From Methylophaga nitratireducenticrescens (GTDB lineage Bacteria; Pseudomonadota; Gammaproteobacteria; Nitrosococcales; Methylophagaceae), in NCBI RefSeq assembly GCF_000260985.4, contig NC_017857.3:992001-1056000 (forward strand): 64,000 bases of DNA. Reading direction: 5' to 3'. This document shows positions 13,337 through 22,919 of this stretch, one piece after another; within the stretch, counting starts at the first letter, position 1, and each line of letters starts with the position of its first letter. The notes under the pieces were generated by a model that saw nothing but the letters and a program-made list of their open reading frames with translations, was not told the origin of the DNA and ran no database searches. Made by a program: the position numbers and the translations under genes.

Positions 13337-13690
<354 letters not shown>

Positions 13691-13715
13691 TTTTTTGCTA
13701 TTCATTAATCCCCAG

Positions 13716-13723
13716 ATAAAATT
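13716..13723. repeat. Target-site duplication, left copy (ATAAAATT)
   Basis: This eight-base sequence directly abuts the left inverted repeat and is repeated exactly at 22207-22214 beyond the right inverted repeat. Joining the flanks with one copy restores a continuous rnpB-mraZ spacer. Confidence 0.9.
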
Positions 13724-13742
13724 GGGTATCCGGATTAAGTGG
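13724..13742 (+). repeat. Left terminal inverted repeat of the ISL3 transposon
   Basis: 19 bases, GGGTATCCGGATTAAGTGG, perfectly complementary to the right end. Just inside are a second GTATCCGG (13744-13751) and a small hairpin (GGTGTT with AACACC, 13750-13766), which may be subterminal transposase contacts present only at this end. Confidence 0.93.
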
Positions 13743-13766
13743 CGTATCCGGTGTTTTACTAACACC

Positions 13767-14084
13767 TGCACACGCTTCGTTCTCTCCGTATTTCCTGGTT
13801 GGCAGGAAAAGTTGGAAGCGGGGGCCTCAAAGCCGCTGCTGCTTCACATCCCGAGAAGGGTTCACGAAAGGCTGATGAAAAATTCGATTCAGCCAGGTCG
13901 TGCGAATCCTTGAATGCCTCGGTGACGAATGTCATGCCGATAATCTTTCAGCTTGAATGGCCCTTTTTTCAATCAGCGGCTAGCTAGATATGTGCAGTGC
14001 AGGTCTCTGACGGATCGACACAGAATGTAGTTACGTATCGAATATGCACTCAATCAGACTCTAGTTGCGTCGTAGACTAGGTCG
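13767..14084. other. Left-end non-coding stretch of the transposon
   Basis: About 320 bases lie between the left-end hairpin and the tetR operator. Only short open frames occur (up to about 60 codons, without convincing ribosome sites), and I recognise no family. There is a TTGCGT (14065-14070) 15 bases before TATAAG inside the operator, a weak promoter candidate for the tetR operon. Otherwise I see nothing definable. Confidence 0.4.
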
Positions 14085-14116
14085 CTATAAGATAGTAATC
14101 AATTACTACCTTATAG
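14085..14116. promoter_or_regulatory. Palindromic operator upstream of tetR
   Basis: CTATAAGATAGTAAT (14085-14099) and ATTACTACCTTATAG (14102-14116) are inverted copies matching at 14 of 15 positions around a two-base centre. The site ends seven bases before the tetR ATG and contains a TATAAG that could be a -10 box. Size, symmetry and position are those of a TetR-family operator, so the regulator probably represses its own operon; binding is inferred. Confidence 0.75.
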
Positions 14117-14123
14117 GCTTGTT

Positions 14124-14741
14124 ATGACTCAGAAACGTAATTTGACGGCTGCAGAACGCCGGGAGCTCACTGTAGACGCGGTCATCGACCTGAGCGCGCA
14201 GGATGATCCAGCCAATATCACCACTGGCAGCATCGCCAAACACATGCGGGTCACCCAAGGTGCGCTGTTCCGCCACTTTCCAAGCAAGGACGCCATCTGG
14301 GAGGCCGTCATCGGCAGGGTGGCCGAACGTGTGATGAAACGGCTAGATAAAGCCGCTGCATCGGCGAATAGCCCGCTGGCCGCGCTCGAGGCGATGTTCC
14401 ATGCCCATATCACGTTTATCGTCGAGCACCCGGGCGTGCCCCGGCTGATGATGGGGCAGCTGCAGCATGCTCGGCCGACGCCGGCCAGACGTATGGTTCG
14501 CTCGCTGCTGTTTCTCTACCGTGAGCGGATCGAGAGATTATTGAACGAGGCGCAGGAGGCTGGCGAGCTGTGTCGAGATCTGGATATTGAGACGGCTGCC
14601 ACGCAGTTCATCGGTACCATTCAGGGGCTGGTCATGCAGTCGCTGATTATCGGCAATATGAACCATATGACCAAGCAGGCCCAGGGGGCATTCCACATCT
14701 ACTGTCATGGCATCCAGAAAGCAAAAAGGGCATACCCATGA
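14124..14741 (+). CDS. TetR/AcrR family transcriptional regulator
   Basis: 205-residue regulator. The N-terminal helix-turn-helix spans about residues 10-60 (AAERRELTVDAVIDLSAQ...TTGSIAKHMRVTQGALFRHFPSKDAIWEAV), with the typical xLFRHFPSKDAL-like recognition helix end. The rest is a helical ligand-binding domain (about 70-205) with an HPGVPRLMMGQLQHA segment. It is the first gene of the cargo operon: its stop overlaps the next ATG (ATGA). A palindromic operator sits right upstream, so autorepression lifted by a pump substrate is the likely logic. The ligand is unknown. Confidence 0.9.
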   Translation: MTQKRNLTAAERRELTVDAVIDLSAQDDPANITTGSIAKHMRVTQGALFRHFPSKDAIWEAVIGRVAERVMKRLDKAAASANSPLAALEAMFHAHITFIVEHPGVPRLMMGQLQHARPTPARRMVRSLLFLYRERIERLLNEAQEAGELCRDLDIETAATQFIGTIQGLVMQSLIIGNMNHMTKQAQGAFHIYCHGIQKAKRAYP

Positions 14742-16078
14742 CAGGCCTGACCCAACGCTTAGGGCGTTTTTTGGCGGTAGTTATTGGTCTCGCCATCGGT
14801 GCGGCGCTTCTGGTCTTTTTCGTGGTTAATCGACAGGCTCCCGAGCACAGCGACTCACCACCTGCCCCCAAGGTGGTGGCAGTGATCGAGGTGCAGCCAC
14901 TGGCGTTATGCCTTGAGGCACGTGGCCACGGCGTGGCGCGCCCTGCCGAAACCTGGCAAGCCGTCGCCAACGTCTCGGGCCGGGTGGTGGAGCGCCACCC
15001 GCATCTGGAGAGCGGCACCCTGCTGCGCGAAGGCACCCTGCTGCTGACGCTGGACCCGAGTCGCTACGAGCTGGCTATCGCCGAGGCCGAGGCGGAGTTG
15101 GCTCAGCTCGAGGTAGAGGAGATCAATACCCTGCGTTTACTGGATTTGGAACGCCAGGCACTCGATCTCGCCGAGCAGGAACTTTCACGAATCGAGCGGG
15201 TGGCGGCCACCGGTGCTGTCTCCACTTCTCAGCGTGATGCTCAACGTCGCAGCACTGTGGGGCAGCGCCAGGCGGTGGCCACTCTGGAGAATACCTTGTT
15301 CTTGCTGCCAGCCAAGCGCGAGCGGGCATCGGTGCGCCTTGCCCAAGCGCGCCGTGACTTGGCGGATACCCGCTTCGAGGCGCCCTACGACCTGCGCCTC
15401 GGTGAGGTGGACGTAGAGCTTCACCAGTTCGTGGGTGCGGGCCAGCGGCTGTTCGAGGCGGATAGCCTGGCGGCCGCCGAGGTAGAGGCACGCCTTCCCT
15501 TTAGCATGGTACGACGCCTCCTGGGCAGTGTGGCGCCGGTCGAGCTCGAGCCCGGCACCCTGGATCTGAGTGAGCGCATCGATCTTGACTCGATCGATGC
15601 TGAGCTGGAACTGGTCGGAGCACCCGGGGTTAGCTGGAAAGGTCGGGTGGTGCGCGTAGCCAGCGGCCTCGACCCGGCCACCCGCGCCGTGCGAGTAGTC
15701 GTAAGGGTTGAGGAGCTCTGGCGCGATGCCCGGCCACCTGACCATCCGCCACTACAGCGCGACATGTACACCCGAGTGCGCCTCTCGGCACCCAGTCCCG
15801 TAGCACAACTCGTGGTCCCCGCATCGGCCCTCCATCAAGGTGAGATCTACCTTGCTGACGAGCACGATCGTCTGGTCAGGCGCCCGGTGTCCGTAGTCTT
15901 CAATCAGGGAGACTTGGCAGTGATCGAGTCGGGCCTCACCCCGGGCGAGCGGGTCATCGTCGACGACCTGCAGCCAGCACTGGCCGGCATGACGCTGGCG
16001 CCGCGGCGTGACGAGGCGCTCGAGGCACGCCTGACCGCCCGGGCTCTGGGCGTAGTAATGTCAGGAGAACGGCAATGA
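14738..16078 (+). CDS. RND efflux periplasmic adaptor (membrane fusion protein)
   Basis: 446-residue HlyD/AcrA-type adaptor. One N-terminal membrane helix (about 12-31) anchors it; a lipoyl/barrel-sandwich part (ANVSGRVVERHPHLESGTLLREGTLLLTLDPSRYE) is followed by a long alpha-helical hairpin (about 110-200, LAIAEAEAELAQLEVEEINTL onward), the returning sandwich half and a beta-barrel domain (about 240-360). It overlaps tetR and the pump gene by four bases each (ATGA), so the three form one translationally coupled unit. It should link the inner-membrane pump to an outer-membrane channel; no channel gene is in the element. Confidence 0.9.
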   Translation: MTGLTQRLGRFLAVVIGLAIGAALLVFFVVNRQAPEHSDSPPAPKVVAVIEVQPLALCLEARGHGVARPAETWQAVANVSGRVVERHPHLESGTLLREGTLLLTLDPSRYELAIAEAEAELAQLEVEEINTLRLLDLERQALDLAEQELSRIERVAATGAVSTSQRDAQRRSTVGQRQAVATLENTLFLLPAKRERASVRLAQARRDLADTRFEAPYDLRLGEVDVELHQFVGAGQRLFEADSLAAAEVEARLPFSMVRRLLGSVAPVELEPGTLDLSERIDLDSIDAELELVGAPGVSWKGRVVRVASGLDPATRAVRVVVRVEELWRDARPPDHPPLQRDMYTRVRLSAPSPVAQLVVPASALHQGEIYLADEHDRLVRRPVSVVFNQGDLAVIESGLTPGERVIVDDLQPALAGMTLAPRRDEALEARLTARALGVVMSGERQ

Positions 16079-19000
16079 TTCGCTGGTTTGCCGCTCATCC
16101 CACCGCCGCCAATCTGCTGCTGATACTGCTGCTGGCCGCCGGGCTGTTCGCCGCACCCCACCTCAAGCGTGAGACCTTCCCAGATTATCGCCCGGTGGAA
16201 GTGTCTGTGGAGGTGGTCTATCGCGGAGCCAGCGCTGCTGACGTGGAGGACGCCGTGTGTCGGCGCCTGCACGATGCAGTTAAAGGCGTGGAATTTCTCG
16301 ATGAGTTCAGCTGTGTGGCTCAGGACAACCTGGCCAGTGCCACGGCAACCATGTCTGCCGGGGGAGATGCCATTCGTTTCCTCAATGAGATCGACACCGA
16401 GGTGAGCGCCATCACCGAGCTGCCAGCCCGTGCCGACCCCCCTGTAGTGAGGGAGCTTCACCGCAGTGACATGGTGGCGGCAGTGGCGGTGTCTGGCGAC
16501 ATGCCGATGCACCAGCTCGAGGACTACGCCCTGCGTCTGGAGGAGCGTATCATGACGCTGCCTGGCGTGGCTGAAGTAGCAATCCACGGGAGGTCCCAGC
16601 GCCAGTGGCAGGTCGCAGCGCCCCGCGAGGTACTGGGCCAGCACGGCCTCTCGGCGCGGGAGCTAGCACGTCGAGTGGCCAGTCAGAACCTTGACCTACC
16701 ACTGAGCACCCTGGAAACCGCCGATCGCAATATCCTTCTGCGCTTCACCGACCAGCGCCGCTCTCTGGCTGAGCTGGCCGATCTGGTAGTGGTCACCGAT
16801 GCCGGGGGCGGCGAGCTGACCCTGGGCGACCTGGCCACCATCACCGAGACCGGTGAGCACGCTGAAGAGCGAATCCGTTTCAACGGTGAGCCGGCGCTGG
16901 TGCTGGAGGTGAGCAAGGCGCTGCGAGACGATGCCCTGACGGTCAAGGAGTCTTTGGAAACGCTGCTTGAGGCGGAACGGCGGCGATTCGACGGGGGTAT
17001 CTCTCTGACGCTGACCCAAGATGCGACCAGTATCGTTCGCGACCGTCTGCAGATGCTGGTGAATAACGGCTTGATGGGGCTGGTGTTGGTGGTGCTGGTA
17101 ATGAGCCTCTTCTTCCGTCCGCGCCTAGCTCTGTGGGCCGTTCTGGGCCTGCCAGCGGCCTTCATGGGGGCCTTCATCGTCATGGCCCTGACCGGGCTGT
17201 CATTGAATATGATCACCTTGGTGGCACTGCTGATGGCTATCGGCATCGTCATGGATGATGCCATCGTGATCACCGACAGCATTGCCGTCCACTCCCTGAA
17301 AGGGGCTTCACCGGTGGAAGCTGTGGTAGCGGGTACCCGCCAGGTGTTGCCCGGCGTACTTTCATCATTTCTTACCACAGTCGCGGTATTCGCGCCGCTT
17401 TCCTTCCTCGCCGGTGAGCTTGGCGCGGTGCTTGAAGTGCTGCCGGTGGTGCTGATCGCCGCCCTGGCAGCGAGCCTCATCGAAGCATTCTGGATCTTGC
17501 CCCATCATCTTAAGGGCAGCGTGGGACGACTCGCCAGTGGGCACGACTCGCGCTTCCGTGTCGCATTCGAACGACATTTTGACAGGTTCCGCGAGTCGGT
17601 CGGTCGGCTGGCCGACCGGGCGATACGATTTCGCCATGCGGTGCTGGGAATCATTTTCGCCATTATGCTGGGCTCTTTCGGCTTTATGGCTGGAGGGCAT
17701 GTGGGCAGTGAGGCCATGCCGGATATTGATGGCGATGTCCTGGAGGCCCGTATCCTGATGCCCCAGGGTACCCCCCTGGCACGTACCGAGGCGGTGGCCG
17801 AGCGAGTCGAGGCGACAATCCGTGAGCTTGATGTACGCTACTCTCCGGACCAGCCGGGGGGAGCATCCCTGGTCGAGGCGATTCAGGTGCGCTTCAACCA
17901 CAACCCCAGCGCCAGGGAGGCAGGTCCCCATGTGGCCACCGTCATAGTCGACCTGCTGACTGCCGAGCGTCGCCGGGTGACCCTGGACGAGCTGACTGCC
18001 GCCTGGCGTGAGGCCATCGGTGAGATCGAGGGGCTTCAGCGATTGATTATTCAGGAGCCCGGCTTCGGCCCCGCCGGGGTGCCCGTGGAGGTGCGCCTGG
18101 CCGGAGAGAACTTGGAGGCCATGAAGACGGCGGCGCTAGAGCTGGGCGACCATCTAGAGAATTATGCAGCCGTCTATAACGTTTTCGACGACCTGCGCTT
18201 GGGCAAGCCTCAATTGACCTTCTCGATGGCCGAAGGCGCCCATGGTTTGGGCCTCTCCGCCGAGGAGGTGGCCGGGCAGCTGCGTGCGGCGCTGCTGGGG
18301 GAGATTGCCGATACCCTGCGCATCGGCGATCAGGAAATCGAGGTGCTGATTCGCCTGGCCGAAGCGGACAGGACCTCTCTCGACGACCTGGCCGATCTGA
18401 CCATCGCCCTGCCGGAAGGAGGCCGGGTGCCGCTTGAGGTGGTGGCCAACGCCGAGGAGCGGCGCGAGTGGGCACGGATCACCCGTATCGACGGGCGGCG
18501 CACAGTCACCGTGGAGGCCAACGTGGATGTGCGGCATGCCACCGGCCAGGCAATCGTCGATGATCTCGTCGGCAGCGGCTGGCTCAGCGAGTTCCGCGAG
18601 CGTTATCCCGAGGTGGCGCTCACTTTCGAGGGGCAAGTGGCGCGCTCCGCTGAGACCGGAGGCTCCATCGGCCGCGGCCTGCTCATCGGACTTGTGGGCA
18701 TCTTCGTGATCCTCTCCTTCCAGTTCCGCAGCTACGTCGAACCGCTAATCGTCATGCTGTCTATCCCGCTGGCCTTCATCGGCGCCATTTGGGGGCATGT
18801 GCTCATGGGCTACTACCTATCTATGCCCTCGCTGATCGGCGCGGCCTCCCTGGCCGGCATCGTGGTCAACAATGCCATCCTGCTGATCCACTTCATCAAG
18901 ACTCATCGCGAGAGCGGGCTGGATGCTGTGGCGGCCGCCGGCCAAGCCAGCCGCGACCGGCTGCGTGCCATCCTGATCTCGTCGACTACCACCATCGCCG

Positions 19001-19179
19001 GTTTGCTCCCGCTTCTGGCCGAAACCAGTACTCAGGCGGCGGCCATAAAACCGCTGGTAATCTCGGTGGTGTTCGGACTGTTCAGCGCCACCGTGCTGGT
19101 GCTACTGGTGATCCCTGCACTCTACGTGCTGTTTGACGAGTGGGGCTGGGTTCAGGCGCCCAAGCCATCAAAAGAGTAA
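16075..19179 (+). CDS. RND family efflux transporter permease
   Basis: 1034-residue proton-driven pump subunit with the RND layout: TM1 (about 13-31), a large periplasmic porter loop, TM2-6 (about 325-480), TM7 (about 525-545), a second periplasmic loop and TM8-12 (about 865-1025). The proton-relay aspartates are D394-D395 in GIVMDDAIVITDS. It resembles the AcrB/MexB-like hydrophobe/amphiphile group more than metal pumps, which carry a different TM4 motif, but the substrate is not predictable. The whole gene is GC-rich relative to the flanking chromosome, pointing to acquisition with the transposon. Confidence 0.93.
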   Translation: MIRWFAAHPTAANLLLILLLAAGLFAAPHLKRETFPDYRPVEVSVEVVYRGASAADVEDAVCRRLHDAVKGVEFLDEFSCVAQDNLASATATMSAGGDAIRFLNEIDTEVSAITELPARADPPVVRELHRSDMVAAVAVSGDMPMHQLEDYALRLEERIMTLPGVAEVAIHGRSQRQWQVAAPREVLGQHGLSARELARRVASQNLDLPLSTLETADRNILLRFTDQRRSLAELADLVVVTDAGGGELTLGDLATITETGEHAEERIRFNGEPALVLEVSKALRDDALTVKESLETLLEAERRRFDGGISLTLTQDATSIVRDRLQMLVNNGLMGLVLVVLVMSLFFRPRLALWAVLGLPAAFMGAFIVMALTGLSLNMITLVALLMAIGIVMDDAIVITDSIAVHSLKGASPVEAVVAGTRQVLPGVLSSFLTTVAVFAPLSFLAGELGAVLEVLPVVLIAALAASLIEAFWILPHHLKGSVGRLASGHDSRFRVAFERHFDRFRESVGRLADRAIRFRHAVLGIIFAIMLGSFGFMAGGHVGSEAMPDIDGDVLEARILMPQGTPLARTEAVAERVEATIRELDVRYSPDQPGGASLVEAIQVRFNHNPSAREAGPHVATVIVDLLTAERRRVTLDELTAAWREAIGEIEGLQRLIIQEPGFGPAGVPVEVRLAGENLEAMKTAALELGDHLENYAAVYNVFDDLRLGKPQLTFSMAEGAHGLGLSAEEVAGQLRAALLGEIADTLRIGDQEIEVLIRLAEADRTSLDDLADLTIALPEGGRVPLEVVANAEERREWARITRIDGRRTVTVEANVDVRHATGQAIVDDLVGSGWLSEFRERYPEVALTFEGQVARSAETGGSIGRGLLIGLVGIFVILSFQFRSYVEPLIVMLSIPLAFIGAIWGHVLMGYYLSMPSLIGAASLAGIVVNNAILLIHFIKTHRESGLDAVAAAGQASRDRLRAILISSTTTIAGLLPLLAETSTQAAAIKPLVISVVFGLFSATVLVLLVIPALYVLFDEWGWVQAPKPSKE

Positions 19180-19227
19180 GCAGCCCAGAAGAACTTTTAT
19201 TGATTGTTCACCAAGAGAGAGAAAAAC

Positions 19228-19707
19228 ATGACATTAAAAAGCTGTAGTGTTAAGACCATCCTACTGATTACCCTGACTGTCCTGCCAACTTGGCTGATGG
19301 CGGGAGACAATAACGCTCAGCACACAGCGAGTGAACAGGAAAGCTCCAGTCAGGATCTAGTGCTTCGCTCCATCATGCGCGAACTAGATCAAAACATGCG
19401 CGAGGTTGTCGGGGCCATCTCCCGAGAAAACTGGGAACAGGTAAATGAAATCGCGTCCCGAATCGCCGATCATGCCGAGCCACCGTTTACCGAAAAGACA
19501 CGCATACTGCGCTTTGTCGGAACCGACGCCGCACGTTTCCGCGGACATGACAGGCAGGTGCATGAAGCAGCGATGGAAATGGGCGAAAAGGCGCGCCACG
19601 AGGATGGCGAAGCAGTGATTGAAGCCTTTTCTCGAGTGCAGAAACACTGCCTCGCCTGCCACCAAGAGTTCAAAGAAGAGTTCAGGGCGTACTTTTACGG
19701 CGAATGA
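19228..19707 (+). CDS. Cytochrome c'-like periplasmic haem protein
   Basis: 159-residue protein with a signal peptide (SVKTILLITLTVLPTWLMAG) and a helical mature part. A single haem-binding CLACH lies near the C terminus (about residues 141-145). A C-terminal CxxCH in a four-helix protein is the arrangement of class II cytochromes c (cytochrome c'). I prefer the ATG at 19228; the frame also opens from a TTG at 19204. It lies 48 bases after the pump gene in the same direction, within the transposon cargo. What a haem protein does beside an efflux pump is unclear: it might buffer nitric oxide or redox stress, or simply be co-carried. Confidence 0.78.
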   Translation: MTLKSCSVKTILLITLTVLPTWLMAGDNNAQHTASEQESSSQDLVLRSIMRELDQNMREVVGAISRENWEQVNEIASRIADHAEPPFTEKTRILRFVGTDAARFRGHDRQVHEAAMEMGEKARHEDGEAVIEAFSRVQKHCLACHQEFKEEFRAYFYGE

Positions 19708-19834
19708 ATAGAGTGTTCGAATGAATAGCAGGATGCAGAGGAACACATACAGATGCAGTCTTTGCGCGACTCGATTTTTTCTAGAGCTGGAACAGCTGAC
19801 CGACATGCCTTGGCTATGTGAAAGTTCGTTAACT

Positions 19835-20813
19835 AACCTGAGCTGCGCATAAGAAAAGAGGAACTAAAAGCCTGAGCCACGATCGAATCGTTTGACCAAA
19901 AACGAGAAACGAAAGGGCTCAAGTATGTACAATTTAGAGAAAATGTATTGCGAAGTCGATGATTTTTGCCAAAGATTTATCCCGGCCTGGCAACACCAGC
20001 AGATAGCAGCCGGAGATAAATGCCGGAACAAGCCTGGCAAGTTGTCGGAAAGTGAAGTCATCACTATTCTGATTTTATTTCACCAGCTCCGCTTCAGAGA
20101 CTTCAAGACCTTTTATACACACTATGCTCGGAAGCACTTGAAGCAAGCTTTCCCCCAACTGGTTAGCTATACCCGCATGTTGAAACTGCTGCAAAGTGTG
20201 CTGGTTCCCCTGTGTGCCTTTATGACACAACGTTACGGCAAACCAACCGGCATCGCCTTTGTTGATTCAACCAAACTGGCGGTATGCCACAACATTCGCA
20301 TTCCTCGAAACCGTGTCTTTAGCGGTGTTGCAGAGCGAGGCAAGGGCACCATGGGCTGGTTTTATGGCTTCAAGCTACACCTGTTAGTGAACGAACAAGG
20401 TGAAATACTTTCAGTAAAAATCACAACGGCCAATATTGATGACCGCAAGCCCATACCGGACATGGTCAAACAGCTATGGGGCACCTTGTATGGCGATAAA
20501 GGTTATCTGTCTCAAACACTTAAAGAGTCATTAGCCGAACAAGGCATTAAGCTGGTCACCGGCATTCGCAAGAATATGAAACCGCAACTGATGACGTTAT
20601 GGGACCGGTTGATGTTGAGAAAACGCTATGTGATTGAAACAATATTTGACCAATTGAAGAATATTTCTCAAATCGAACACTCACGGCACCGCAGCCCTGT
20701 CAGCTTTATGGTCCACCTCATGGCTGGATTGGTGGCTTATACCTTCCAACCCAAGAAGCCTTCTATCAAGTTGAACAGGAATGAAAAGGGCGCGCTTATG
20801 CAGATCTGAGGTT
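19835..20813 (+). mobile_element. IS982-family insertion sequence nested in the transposon
   Basis: 979-bp element. Its left end AACCTGAGCTGCGCATAAG (19835-19853) and the reverse of its right end, AACCTCAGATCTGCATAAG (20795-20813), match at 15 of 19 positions. AACT abuts both sides (19831-19834 and 20814-20817) as a probable target duplication. It holds one full-length transposase gene. Size and layout are normal for IS982. Its base composition is lower in G+C than the surrounding cargo, so it is a later arrival. Confidence 0.85.
19925..20809 (+). CDS. IS982 family transposase
   Basis: 294-residue DDE transposase. The family N terminus MYNLEKMYCEVDDFCQRF fixes the start at the ATG 19925, although the frame is open a little further upstream. 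Catalytic acidic residues are likely the D in FVDSTKL, the D in YGDKGYLS and the E in YVIETIFDQLKN. The C-terminal SRHRSPVSFMVHLMAGLVAYTF is typical. The gene is intact, so the element could still be mobile. Its stop lies four bases inside the right end of the IS. Confidence 0.93.
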   Translation: MYNLEKMYCEVDDFCQRFIPAWQHQQIAAGDKCRNKPGKLSESEVITILILFHQLRFRDFKTFYTHYARKHLKQAFPQLVSYTRMLKLLQSVLVPLCAFMTQRYGKPTGIAFVDSTKLAVCHNIRIPRNRVFSGVAERGKGTMGWFYGFKLHLLVNEQGEILSVKITTANIDDRKPIPDMVKQLWGTLYGDKGYLSQTLKESLAEQGIKLVTGIRKNMKPQLMTLWDRLMLRKRYVIETIFDQLKNISQIEHSRHRSPVSFMVHLMAGLVAYTFQPKKPSIKLNRNEKGALMQI

Positions 20814-20857
20814 AACTACTGAATACACCATTCTGATACAGGAAGCTTTGCCCCGAA

Positions 20858-22159
20858 ATGTCACACTTGCCTGACAACGTATTGCGCCTCCCTGAGTACC
20901 AGATACTAAATGCCATGGAAATGGAAGACGGGTTGCACTTTCATATAGTTGCTCCCGACCCCATAGCTTGCGAAGAGTGCGGCGCAGAGGATGAGTTTGT
21001 CAGGTTCGGCAAGCGTGATGTCGCTTACCGCGACCTCCCGGTCCACGGAAAGCGGGTCATCCTCTGGGTGATCCGCCGACGCTACTCTTGTCGAGCTTGC
21101 GGCACGACATTCCGCCCTTCGCTCCCGGACATGGTGGACGACCATCGAATGACTCGGCGGCTGTACAGTCACGTCGAGAAGGAGTCCTTCAATCATCCCT
21201 ATGCCTACGTAGCCGACACTACGGGCCTCAACGAGAAGACTATCCGCGAGATATTCAGGAAGAAGGCCGAGTTCTTGGCGGCTTGGCACCGCTTCGAGAC
21301 ACCTCGTTGCCTGGGCATCGATGAGCTTTACCTGAACCGCCGCTACCGCTGCATCCTTACCAACCTAGAAGAGCGCACCCTGTTGGACCTGTTGCCCGGT
21401 CGTCAGCAGGACGCGGTGACGAAGCGGCTCATGAGCATGACCGAGCGCGGCAAGGTCGAGATTGTTAGCATGGATATGTGGAAGCCCTACCGCCGTGCCG
21501 TCCAGGCGGTGCTGCCACAGGCCCGCATCGTTGTCGATATGTTCCATGTTGTGCATATGGCCAACGAAGCCCTAGAGAAGGTTCGCAAGGGGCTCAGGAA
21601 GGAGCTAACGGCCAACCAACGCCGAACCCTCAAGGGTGACCGGAAGATATTGCTGAAGCGGGCTCACGATGTCTCCGACCGCGAACGTCTCATCATGGAA
21701 ACTTGGATGGGGGCCTTCCCCCAGCTCTTGGCAGCCTACGAGCACAAGGAGCGGTTCTACCACATCTGGGACTGTGCCACTCGGCGAGATGCTGAGCAGG
21801 CGCTGGCTGCCTGGATAGACGACATCCCGCAAGGGCAGAAGGAGGTCTGGAAGGAACTTGTCAGCGCCGTCAGCGGATGGCGTGAGGAGATGTTAACCTA
21901 CTTCGAGACTGACATCCCGGTCACCAATGCCTTCACGGAGTCGATCAACCAGCTGGCCAAGGACAAGAACCGCGATGGTCGGGGCTACTCATTCGAGGTG
22001 ATGCGAGCCCGGATGCTCTACACCACCAAGCACAAGAAGAAGACGCCACAGACCAAGGAATCCCCCTTCCTGGGCAAGGCCACCATGACCTACAGCATGA
22101 GTCTCCCCGAGTCCGAGAAGAACTACGGCGTCGATCTATCAACCTTCTGGGAAGATTAA
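20858..22159 (+). CDS. ISL3 family transposase
   Basis: 433-residue transposase. An N-terminal zinc ribbon (CEECG...CRACG, about residues 38-85) is followed by a helix-turn-helix and the DDE_Tnp_ISL3 domain. Candidate catalytic residues are D in LGIDELYL, D in VVDMFHVVHMANEALEKVRKG and E in NAFTESINQLAKDKNRDGRGYSFEVMRAR. It is full length with no frameshift. It lies next to the right terminal repeat and is probably the enzyme that moves the whole 8.48-kb unit. IS982 now lies upstream and may have cut it off from, or supplied, its promoter. Confidence 0.94.
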   Translation: MSHLPDNVLRLPEYQILNAMEMEDGLHFHIVAPDPIACEECGAEDEFVRFGKRDVAYRDLPVHGKRVILWVIRRRYSCRACGTTFRPSLPDMVDDHRMTRRLYSHVEKESFNHPYAYVADTTGLNEKTIREIFRKKAEFLAAWHRFETPRCLGIDELYLNRRYRCILTNLEERTLLDLLPGRQQDAVTKRLMSMTERGKVEIVSMDMWKPYRRAVQAVLPQARIVVDMFHVVHMANEALEKVRKGLRKELTANQRRTLKGDRKILLKRAHDVSDRERLIMETWMGAFPQLLAAYEHKERFYHIWDCATRRDAEQALAAWIDDIPQGQKEVWKELVSAVSGWREEMLTYFETDIPVTNAFTESINQLAKDKNRDGRGYSFEVMRARMLYTTKHKKKTPQTKESPFLGKATMTYSMSLPESEKNYGVDLSTFWED

Positions 22160-22187
22160 GGTTTTGGTGGCTCAGAAGGGGCATCTA

Positions 22188-22206
22188 CCACTTAATCCGG
22201 ATACCC
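22188..22206 (-). repeat. Right terminal inverted repeat of the ISL3 transposon
   Basis: CCACTTAATCCGGATACCC, the exact reverse complement of the left end. It begins 28 bases after the transposase stop. Similarity to the left end stops after 19 bases. Confidence 0.93.
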
Positions 22207-22214
22207 ATAAAATT
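22207..22214. repeat. Target-site duplication, right copy (ATAAAATT)
   Basis: Exact repeat of 13716-13723, directly outside the right terminal repeat. Confidence 0.9.
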
Positions 22215-22466: not shown

Positions 22467-22919
22467 GTGTTTCGAGGCGTAGCAACTTTTAATCTGGATG
22501 CAAAAGGACGGATGGCCATACCAGCCAAGTTCCGTAAGCATCTTGATGTCTGTTGCGAGGGCCGTTTAGTTATCACCATTGACCATTCCGACCACTGTTT
22601 ACAGCTTTACCCATTGCCAGAATGGGAAGCTGTTGAACAAAAACTATCTGCGCTACCAAGTTTGAACCCACAGGTTCGTCGACTCAAACGTATGCTGTTG
22701 GGATATGCCACTGAGTGTGAAATGGATAGCAATGGACGCATCCTATTGCCAGCAAAGCTTCGTGAATTCGCAGGTTTAGATAAAAATATCGTGATGATTG
22801 GTCAGGGAAATAAGTTTGAGCTGTGGGACGAACAAAGCTGGAATACATTGATGGATGCATGTCTTCAAGAAGACTTTGACGCAATACTGCCAGCCGAACT
22901 CGAAACGCTGTCGATATAG
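22467..22919 (+). CDS. mraZ: Transcriptional regulator MraZ
   Basis: 150-residue protein of two tandem SpoVT/AbrB-like domains, with the duplicated DxKGRxxxPxxxR signature (LDAKGRMAIPAKFR near 10-23 and MDSNGRILLPAKLREFAGL near 83-101). It forms ring-like oligomers that bind GTGG repeats and control the dcw operon; such repeats lie just upstream. It starts with GTG (family start VFRG). It is the first gene of the cluster, nine bases before rsmH. Confidence 0.96.
   Translation: MFRGVATFNLDAKGRMAIPAKFRKHLDVCCEGRLVITIDHSDHCLQLYPLPEWEAVEQKLSALPSLNPQVRRLKRMLLGYATECEMDSNGRILLPAKLREFAGLDKNIVMIGQGNKFELWDEQSWNTLMDACLQEDFDAILPAELETLSI

Follow-up and report, generated by a model that had tools for sequence, protein, structure and literature searches.

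Work on tripartite efflux pumps mostly treats them as transporters and nothing more. For the resistance-nodulation-division (RND) pump MexEF-OprN of Pseudomonas, two papers describe induction by nitrosative stress and suggest nitrosated products as substrates (PMC4790303, PMC4814523); Mex pumps and nitric oxide (NO) donors are also treated in a further paper, which is not used as support (PMC11263931). Transposable elements of the ISL3 family have a literature of their own, which includes ISPpu12a (PMC4447125), and RND genes are described beside an ISL3-type element in a paper in whose text the word cytochrome is absent (PMC3960245). Here we describe a locus from a 64,000-nucleotide stretch of the Methylophaga nitratireducenticrescens genome (contig NC_017857.3, positions 992,001 to 1,056,000; hereafter the window), in which a single ISL3-family transposon of 8,483 bp (13724-22206) carries, at 14124-19707, genes for a TetR-family repressor, a periplasmic adaptor, an RND permease and a cytochrome c'-like protein. 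In plain terms, a jumping element has carried a self-regulated pump and a small iron protein into this host; the regulator, DNA switch and iron protein turn up again in other bacteria beside pumps of other kinds, in some cases close to NO genes, which suggests a protective kit that had gone unrecognised. In the reading we favour, to which we assign a probability of roughly 0.55, the four genes form a mobile, TetR-repressed protection module whose pump would expel an amphiphilic toxicant via a host channel with a periplasmic cytochrome as its partner, nitrosative or denitrification stress being the favoured setting.

The four genes had been called in a first-pass annotation of the window, and both their coordinates and the gene calls proved correct. 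Together with the operator that precedes them, they are as follows.

14085..14116, no strand: palindromic operator, with its core AAGATAGTAATCAATTACTACCTT at 14089-14112, 11 bp before tetR; conserved in other modules.
14124..14741, plus strand: TetR-family repressor of 205 amino acids (TetR_N 32.8 bits, TetR_C_13 41.7 bits).
14738..16078, plus strand: RND periplasmic adaptor of 446 amino acids with a long helical hairpin (RND_mfp TIGR01730 116 bits, cut-off 94.9; Pfam HlyD_3).
16075..19179, plus strand: RND permease, HAE-like, of 1034 amino acids (ACR_tran PF00873 538.8 bits, full length, 1-1021 of 1021).
19228..19707, plus strand: cytochrome c'-like protein of 159 amino acids (Cytochrom_C_2 PF01322 34.6 bits, cut-off 26.5).

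The first three genes overlap by 4 bp as ATGA units at both the tetR/adaptor and the adaptor/RND junction, just as the annotation had it. Sought in other genomes, the four-gene order is also present in Billgrantia campisalis, identically and on a 420-kb contig (tblastn identities of 88% for TetR, 79% for the adaptor, 91% for the RND permease and 80% for the cytochrome), and in a congeneric species (G015), where the RND and cytochrome genes overlap by 4 bp. In the window the cytochrome gene starts at ATG 19228, 48 bp past the RND stop codon (TTG 19204 is only a mechanical open reading frame (ORF) start), and the haem motif CLACH lies at residues 141-145 of the 159. The N-terminus of this protein, judged by eye rather than with a prediction tool, appears signal-like and would direct export. 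We assign the protein to a family, A1, in which an H-x-x-P-P motif and a C-terminal F-Y were found in all five rows; a PDB search gave no relative better than E 0.28, and there was no NCBIfam match.

In the structural model of the adaptor, helices span residues 107-157 and 163-211, with block-mean predicted local distance difference test (pLDDT) values of 72-91 over residues 111-210 and poor values over most of the remainder; the long hairpin so modelled would be fit for docking on an outer-membrane channel. The adaptor gene (14738-16078) encodes exactly 7 residues fewer on each hairpin arm, after residues 120 and 191, than all eight aligned relatives; each is a 21-bp in-frame gap that, judged by eye, lies between short direct repeats, as if one heptad had been lost on both hairpin helices. 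The RND permease scores far below the curated NCBIfam cut-offs of named multidrug subfamilies (NF033617, 467 of 1250 bits; TIGR00915, 334 of 940), and membership of the heavy-metal RND family was rejected (TIGR00914, 248 of 701 bits). In its last quarter, as in the Billgrantia and G015 proteins, GIVVNNAI aligns with GIVKKNAI of MdtB, the segment with that protein's transmembrane lysine pair, and at this site the proton relay may differ from that of AcrB. The transposon has no outer-membrane channel among its six scanned genes, which bears out the earlier statement that a TolC-like gene is missing; the host genome gives 22 OEP-domain matches, pairing by position into 11 candidate channel genes, and it is plausible that the pump would use one of the host's channels. 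Anti-phage defence was rejected as a function, PADLOC giving no match to the four cargo proteins, and so was a phage origin, with the cytochrome unmatched in the phage collection (E 1e-3) and without a relative in viral contigs.

The operator, which the first-pass annotation had missed, connects this RND module with modules driven by other exporters. The window copy at 14089-14112 has one mismatch to AAGATAGTAATnnATTACTATCTT, and no match arose in any of 100 shuffled versions of the window. With 0-4 mismatches to AAGATAGTAATCAATTACTATCTT, the operator core lies ahead of the RND modules in Billgrantia, G015 and G401, and also ahead of ATP-binding cassette (ABC) exporter modules on plasmids and in genomes (L009, L012, L013, L014, L092, L101), and ahead of the cytochrome gene in L097. 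Shuffled versions of 32 stretches (L089-L120; 453,619 bases) gave one operator match at up to 6 mismatches, and a scan of viral contigs gave none. A sweep of 369 genomes matched the operator in 17, against 3 for the reversed pattern, and in 13 of the 17 it lies beside a TetR gene of the window kind. Ten operator stretches newly found in this way are ABC modules, and L195 combines a HlyD adaptor, two ABC-2 permeases and a channel. In G159 (L187 1-800), an exact operator copy precedes a b561-type cytochrome gene, which suggests that this kind of TetR may have other targets; in Thioclava, a b561 cytochrome gene lies beside the adaptor, and neither b561 gene was matched in any other stretch compared.

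Phylogenetic trees agree with this picture. In the TetR tree, the rows of the window, Billgrantia, G015, G401 and G166 fall with ABC-module rows in an 18-row clade (99/98), and in the cytochrome tree the rows of the window, Billgrantia and G015 lie nearest those of plasmid ABC modules (94/86, a join below the tool's mark of 95 and with a bootstrap that had not settled). Cytochrome relatives were found in 179 plasmid records, one of the 40 matches listed covering 80% of the query; among the plasmid modules examined, L012-L014 came from the cytochrome search and L009 from a TetR DNA match. A near-identical operator precedes both RND- and ABC-driven modules, so that the three parts, regulator, operator and cytochrome, are found again with pumps of different types; we read this as a regulator-operator-cytochrome unit that appears to have changed its exporter. 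The suggestion that the genes may form a small stress module stands up.

We then measured how regularly the cytochrome accompanies a pump. At E 1e-6 a five-row profile of family A1 found matches in 29 of the 369 genomes searched in the class and in 28 of the 398 in the phylum, both counts including the genome of the window. Among the 24 stretches around the better cytochrome places (L089-L112, G015 included), tblastn found an RND gene in 10 and an ABC permease in 2 more; in L094 an MMPL exporter adjoins the cytochrome, and a channel or adaptor gene lies within L089, L100 and L106. Given an expected RND rate of about 5.4% per stretch, derived from the 214 RND genes counted in 24 genomes totalling 74.8 Mb, 10 of 24 has a binomial probability of 2e-7. 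With one row per genus, in the least favourable choice, an RND gene was found in 8 of 18 stretches (2e-6), and in 7 of 17 when the host's genus was excluded (2e-5). None of the eight weaker cytochrome stretches (L113-L120) has an RND gene (Fisher 0.035 versus the better set).

The converse search, in which 33 of the 369 genomes, counting the window's own, had a match to the RND protein, gave a similar result. A cytochrome c'-like gene with a haem motif lies nearby at 4 of 6 non-self places with RND identity of at least 54% (G274, G128, G401, G194), versus 1 of 26 places at 50% or less, with a trace at one (Fisher 0.002), a comparison in which the low-identity search covered only small ORFs with CXXCH near the end, several low-identity stretches were shortened by contig ends and the second RND place of G156 was left out. 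The cytochromes of G128 and G274 score slightly below the PF01322 cut-off. The first-pass annotation had drawn attention to the adjacency of cytochrome and pump, which is real, but its description of the pairing as not standard did not hold, given these proportions and the occurrence of the cytochrome with ABC exporters too; cytochrome and RND pump are a recurrent pairing within one RND clade. The cytochrome gene does not keep one position: depending on the locus it comes last, lies between tetR and the adaptor gene or adjoins a divergent tetR, and this speaks against hitchhiking. Another cytochrome-RND association, a distant one, is seen in L103, L105, L109 and L111, where the RND protein is 27-29% identical and a TetR gene is present; the TetR rows of L103 and L105, the only two of these placed in the tree, fall in another clade.

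The surroundings of several close relatives point towards NO. In G015 a single strand carries, in order, norC, norB, the gene for a VWA protein (norD) and norQ, followed after 225 bp by tetR, adaptor, RND and cytochrome genes; the names nor and NorR-like are used here on the basis of domains and the known gene order. In G401, genes for a globin-FAD-NAD protein (flavohaemoglobin) and a GAF-sigma54-Fis regulator adjoin the cytochrome gene, and in G128 a GAF-sigma54 regulator, 47% identical, is encoded beside the RND gene. An Rrf2 regulator gene lies about 4.3 kb from the RND gene in G194, and the Thioclava stretch has Rrf2 and hemerythrin genes. With stretches below 6.5 kb excluded and L199 a duplicate of L201, NO-type genes were present in 5 of 10 stretches with RND identity of at least 54%, in 2 of 23 stretches with RND proteins of lower identity (norQ/norD-like genes in G084; nirK in Maritalea, RND 43%) and in 1 of 58 others (a regulator in G022, from the host's genus). 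Fisher tests of the close RND stretches gave 1e-4 versus the 58 and 0.016 versus the 23, and they are post hoc because the queries were taken from positive stretches. The host genome itself (G000, 434.8-441.2 kb) has norCBDQ and a NorR-like gene without the pump module there. The host nor cluster ends beside a fragment resembling an IS982 transposase (L237 4195-4401; 54% over 69 amino acids), on the side where G015 has the pump module.

In the mechanism we propose, TetR would sit on the palindromic operator before its own gene until an inducer binds it and frees the autoregulated operon. The adaptor and RND pump would then join a TolC-like channel of the host and expel an amphiphilic toxicant, perhaps nitrosated products or similar amphiphiles. 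The cytochrome c' would act as a working partner in the periplasm, possibly in contact with the pump, most likely by binding NO or by exchanging an electron with compounds of that class, and nitrosative or denitrification stress is the physiological setting that we would favour. This nitrosative reading is the best supported among the readings considered. A more ambitious version, which we put forward tentatively and at less than even odds, is that of an unrecognised mobile module with an exchangeable engine, in which the TetR-operator pair and the cytochrome c' are kept and the exporter is swapped (RND, FtsX/DevC-like ABC, perhaps ABC-2). Such a module would serve nitrosative or denitrification stress, and transposons would have carried it from marine and haloalkaliphilic bacteria into the plasmids of enterobacteria; in the periplasm its cytochrome would act on what the pump exports through redox or NO chemistry, and b561-type cytochromes controlled by the same operator might feed it.

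The module could also be an ordinary mobile multidrug or solvent efflux operon, whose cytochrome would be a redox helper for substrate stress with no special link to NO, an explanation we consider possible if somewhat unlikely. An HAE-type RND permease, a HlyD adaptor and a TetR regulator belong to the usual make-up of multidrug systems, the plasmid ABC-type relatives examined sit in mobile DNA, and NO-type queries were unmatched in all 15 ABC-type stretches (a subset of the 58). Set against this are the NO-type genes in 5 of 10 close RND stretches versus 1 of 58, post hoc as that count is, and the fact that cytochromes c' are classic NO binders. Haem or porphyrin detoxification, with the pumps exporting haem-like compounds and the c-type cytochrome serving as a haem sink, is very unlikely. 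The ABC permease has weak DevC/FtsX matches and the ATPase is LolD/MacB-like, all below cut-offs and with a TetR gene in front, a layout that resembles HrtBA/HrtR, but a covalent c-type haem protein would make a poor reversible sink. Least credible of all is that the cytochrome is an unrelated hitchhiker between pump and transposase. Its own 48-bp gap, a GC content at third codon positions (GC3) below that of the pump genes and the relatives without a cytochrome would fit such an origin, but the adjacency is the same in Billgrantia and G015, the gene recurs with ABC pumps under the shared operator, the lower GC3 is seen in Billgrantia too, and its ratio of nonsynonymous to synonymous substitution rates (dN/dS) of 0.16 is that of purifying selection. 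Chance hitchhiking was rejected, the pairing recurring in unrelated genera.

A number of observations nonetheless weigh against the favoured reading of a TetR-repressed protection module tied to nitrosative stress. As well as failing to match the ABC-type stretches, the NO-type queries had no match in the 64-kb window, and the test that links such genes to close RND relatives is post hoc; Rrf2 or GAF-sigma54 regulators are no proof of NO sensing, and TetR proteins are not known as typical NO sensors. For the operator, besides the control matches of the reversed pattern, no TetR match lies beside it in 4 of the 17 genomes (G293, G057, G059, G159), the cytochrome was unmatched in ten ABC-type operator stretches (L182-L184, L186, L188, L191-L194 and L196, the last ending just past the ATPase gene), and the operator was unmatched in G128, G194 and G274 though a cytochrome is present. 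In eight of the 24 cytochrome stretches (L090, L091, L093, L096, L098, L099, L104, L112), whose other neighbours were scanned only in part, neither an RND gene nor an ABC permease was matched, and the cytochrome gene of G164 has an in-frame stop ahead of the haem motif. G166 (RND 64%) lacks a cytochrome, and the operator is absent there even when 6 mismatches are allowed; in G053 (RND 72%) a frameshifted cytochrome remnant without the haem motif lies beside the pump (L107 7500-8400); the pump can therefore do without the cytochrome. To these are added the narrow scope of the low-identity cytochrome search, the unsettled join in the cytochrome tree and a low-confidence model of the cytochrome, in which helices are predicted from a two-row alignment at a pLDDT of 43. 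In G053 a different contig (L191) bears an ABC module that stands apart from its RND pump and has the operator.

That the cargo is foreign and GC-rich, as the annotation had proposed, is upheld gene by gene. GC3 is 0.71-0.75 in the tetR, adaptor and RND genes and 0.58-0.59 in the cytochrome gene, versus 0.35-0.45 in eight flanking host genes. Relative synonymous codon usage (RSCU) of the four cargo genes correlates at 0.04-0.14 with the host set (the eight window flanking genes) and at 0.50-0.84 with a Billgrantia set (seven flanking genes). In Billgrantia campisalis, GC3 is 0.70 for tetR, 0.57 for the cytochrome gene and 0.81-0.82 for the pump genes; since the cytochrome and tetR genes are less GC-rich than the pump genes there too, the cargo is compositionally mosaic. 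Between the window and Billgrantia copies, dN/dS is 0.09-0.16 across the four genes, and all four therefore look to be under purifying selection. In the 20-kb Billgrantia stretch neither this ISL3 transposase nor the IS982 one found a match, and the inverted repeat was absent when up to 5 mismatches were allowed.

The element that carries these genes has well-defined ends, and the remaining features of the transposon are as follows.

13716..13723, no strand: left copy of the 8-bp target duplication ATAAAATT, identical to 22207-22214.
13724..13742, plus strand: left inverted repeat GGGTATCCGGATTAAGTGG of the ISL3-family transposon, a perfect 19-bp match to the right end.
19828..19835, no strand: left copy of the 8-bp duplication GTTAACTA around the IS982 insert, repeated at 20811-20818.
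19836..20810, plus strand: nested IS982-family insertion sequence, transposase at 19925-20809 (NF033520 279.8 bits).
20811..20818, no strand: right copy of the IS982 target duplication GTTAACTA, matching 19828-19835.
20858..22159, plus strand: ISL3-family transposase of 433 amino acids (NF033550 295.2 bits, cut-off 180; PF01610 220.4 bits).
22188..22206, minus strand: right inverted repeat of the ISL3-family transposon, a perfect 19-bp match to the left end.
22207..22214, no strand: right copy of the 8-bp target duplication ATAAAATT, identical to 13716-13723.

The transposon lies between rnpB (13340-13691) and a gene at 22467 that we name mraZ-like from its sequence. The IS982 element between the cytochrome and ISL3 transposase genes is a later insertion than the transposon; it has seven further 100% identical places in the host genome, one at 95% and weaker ones besides, and the transposon without it has a single match there. 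The ISL3 transposase is 89.1% identical to a Halomonas sp. HAL1 plasmid copy and 73.5% to that of ISPpu12; the best copies within the host's genus reach 84-87%. Such transposases are frequent in that genus, with 8 of 24 genomes, among them that of the window, having one, and perfect 8-bp duplications bound 4 of 5 same-genus ISL3 elements in which both ends were seen. The same type of 19-bp repeat bounds related Halomonas and Paracoccus plasmid elements with ars or mer genes inside, and a matching target duplication was not seen at the plasmid copies examined. The best reading of these data is that the operon was probably brought in by an ISL3 cargo transposon from a Halomonas-like donor lineage. 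A viral contig (L124 1875-3196) has a 1.3-kb element with the same left repeat, a related right repeat and an 8-bp duplication, GTATTTTT; it gave no match to any module or transposase query.

If the favoured reading of a pump with a cytochrome partner is true, a haem protein travels under one conserved operator with pumps of unrelated energy source, and certain exporters would have a redox or NO-binding protein as their partner in the periplasm. The ABC form is found on Klebsiella and Citrobacter plasmids (L013, L009), whose products bear nothing but generic names in the four plasmid records examined, and one set of assays would inform both the RND and the plasmid ABC forms.

Compared with described systems, the transposon and the pump are of known kinds. 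A variant is seen in the unit of TetR, operator and cytochrome that occurs with different pumps; neither the cytochrome-pump pairing nor the operator was found described in searches limited to open-licence PubMed Central papers. The element resembles ISPpu12 and related ISL3 elements in its transposase, in its similar inverted repeats and in having resistance-type cargo between its ends, whereas the cargo of ISPpu12 is a cation transporter and lspA and that of the Halomonas and Paracoccus elements is ars or mer, in place of TetR, RND pump and cytochrome. It shares TetR, a hairpin adaptor and an RND permease with TetR-controlled HAE-type operons of the AcrAB/MexAB kind; unlike these, it has no channel gene, a cytochrome c' as partner and an operator common to ABC pumps. 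The cytochrome is like known cytochromes c' in its Pfam family (PF01322) and C-terminal CXXCH, and differs in having no close PDB relative, in its H-x-x-P-P and C-terminal F-Y motifs and in matching no NCBIfam model. MexT, the activator of the Pseudomonas pump MexEF-OprN, is of the LysR type. The closest precedent for an RND pump tied to nitrosative stress is MexEF-OprN, which differs in its MexT activator and its own channel OprN and for which the parts of the two papers seen mention no cytochrome (PMC4790303, PMC4814523). The plasmid operons of Klebsiella, Pelobacter and Vitreoscilla, in the order TetR, adaptor, ABC permease, ATPase, cytochrome c and NodT, share with the window module the same kind of TetR, a near-identical operator and a cytochrome 46% identical, and differ from it in having an ABC engine for the RND one, an outer-membrane channel of their own and other mobile elements nearby.

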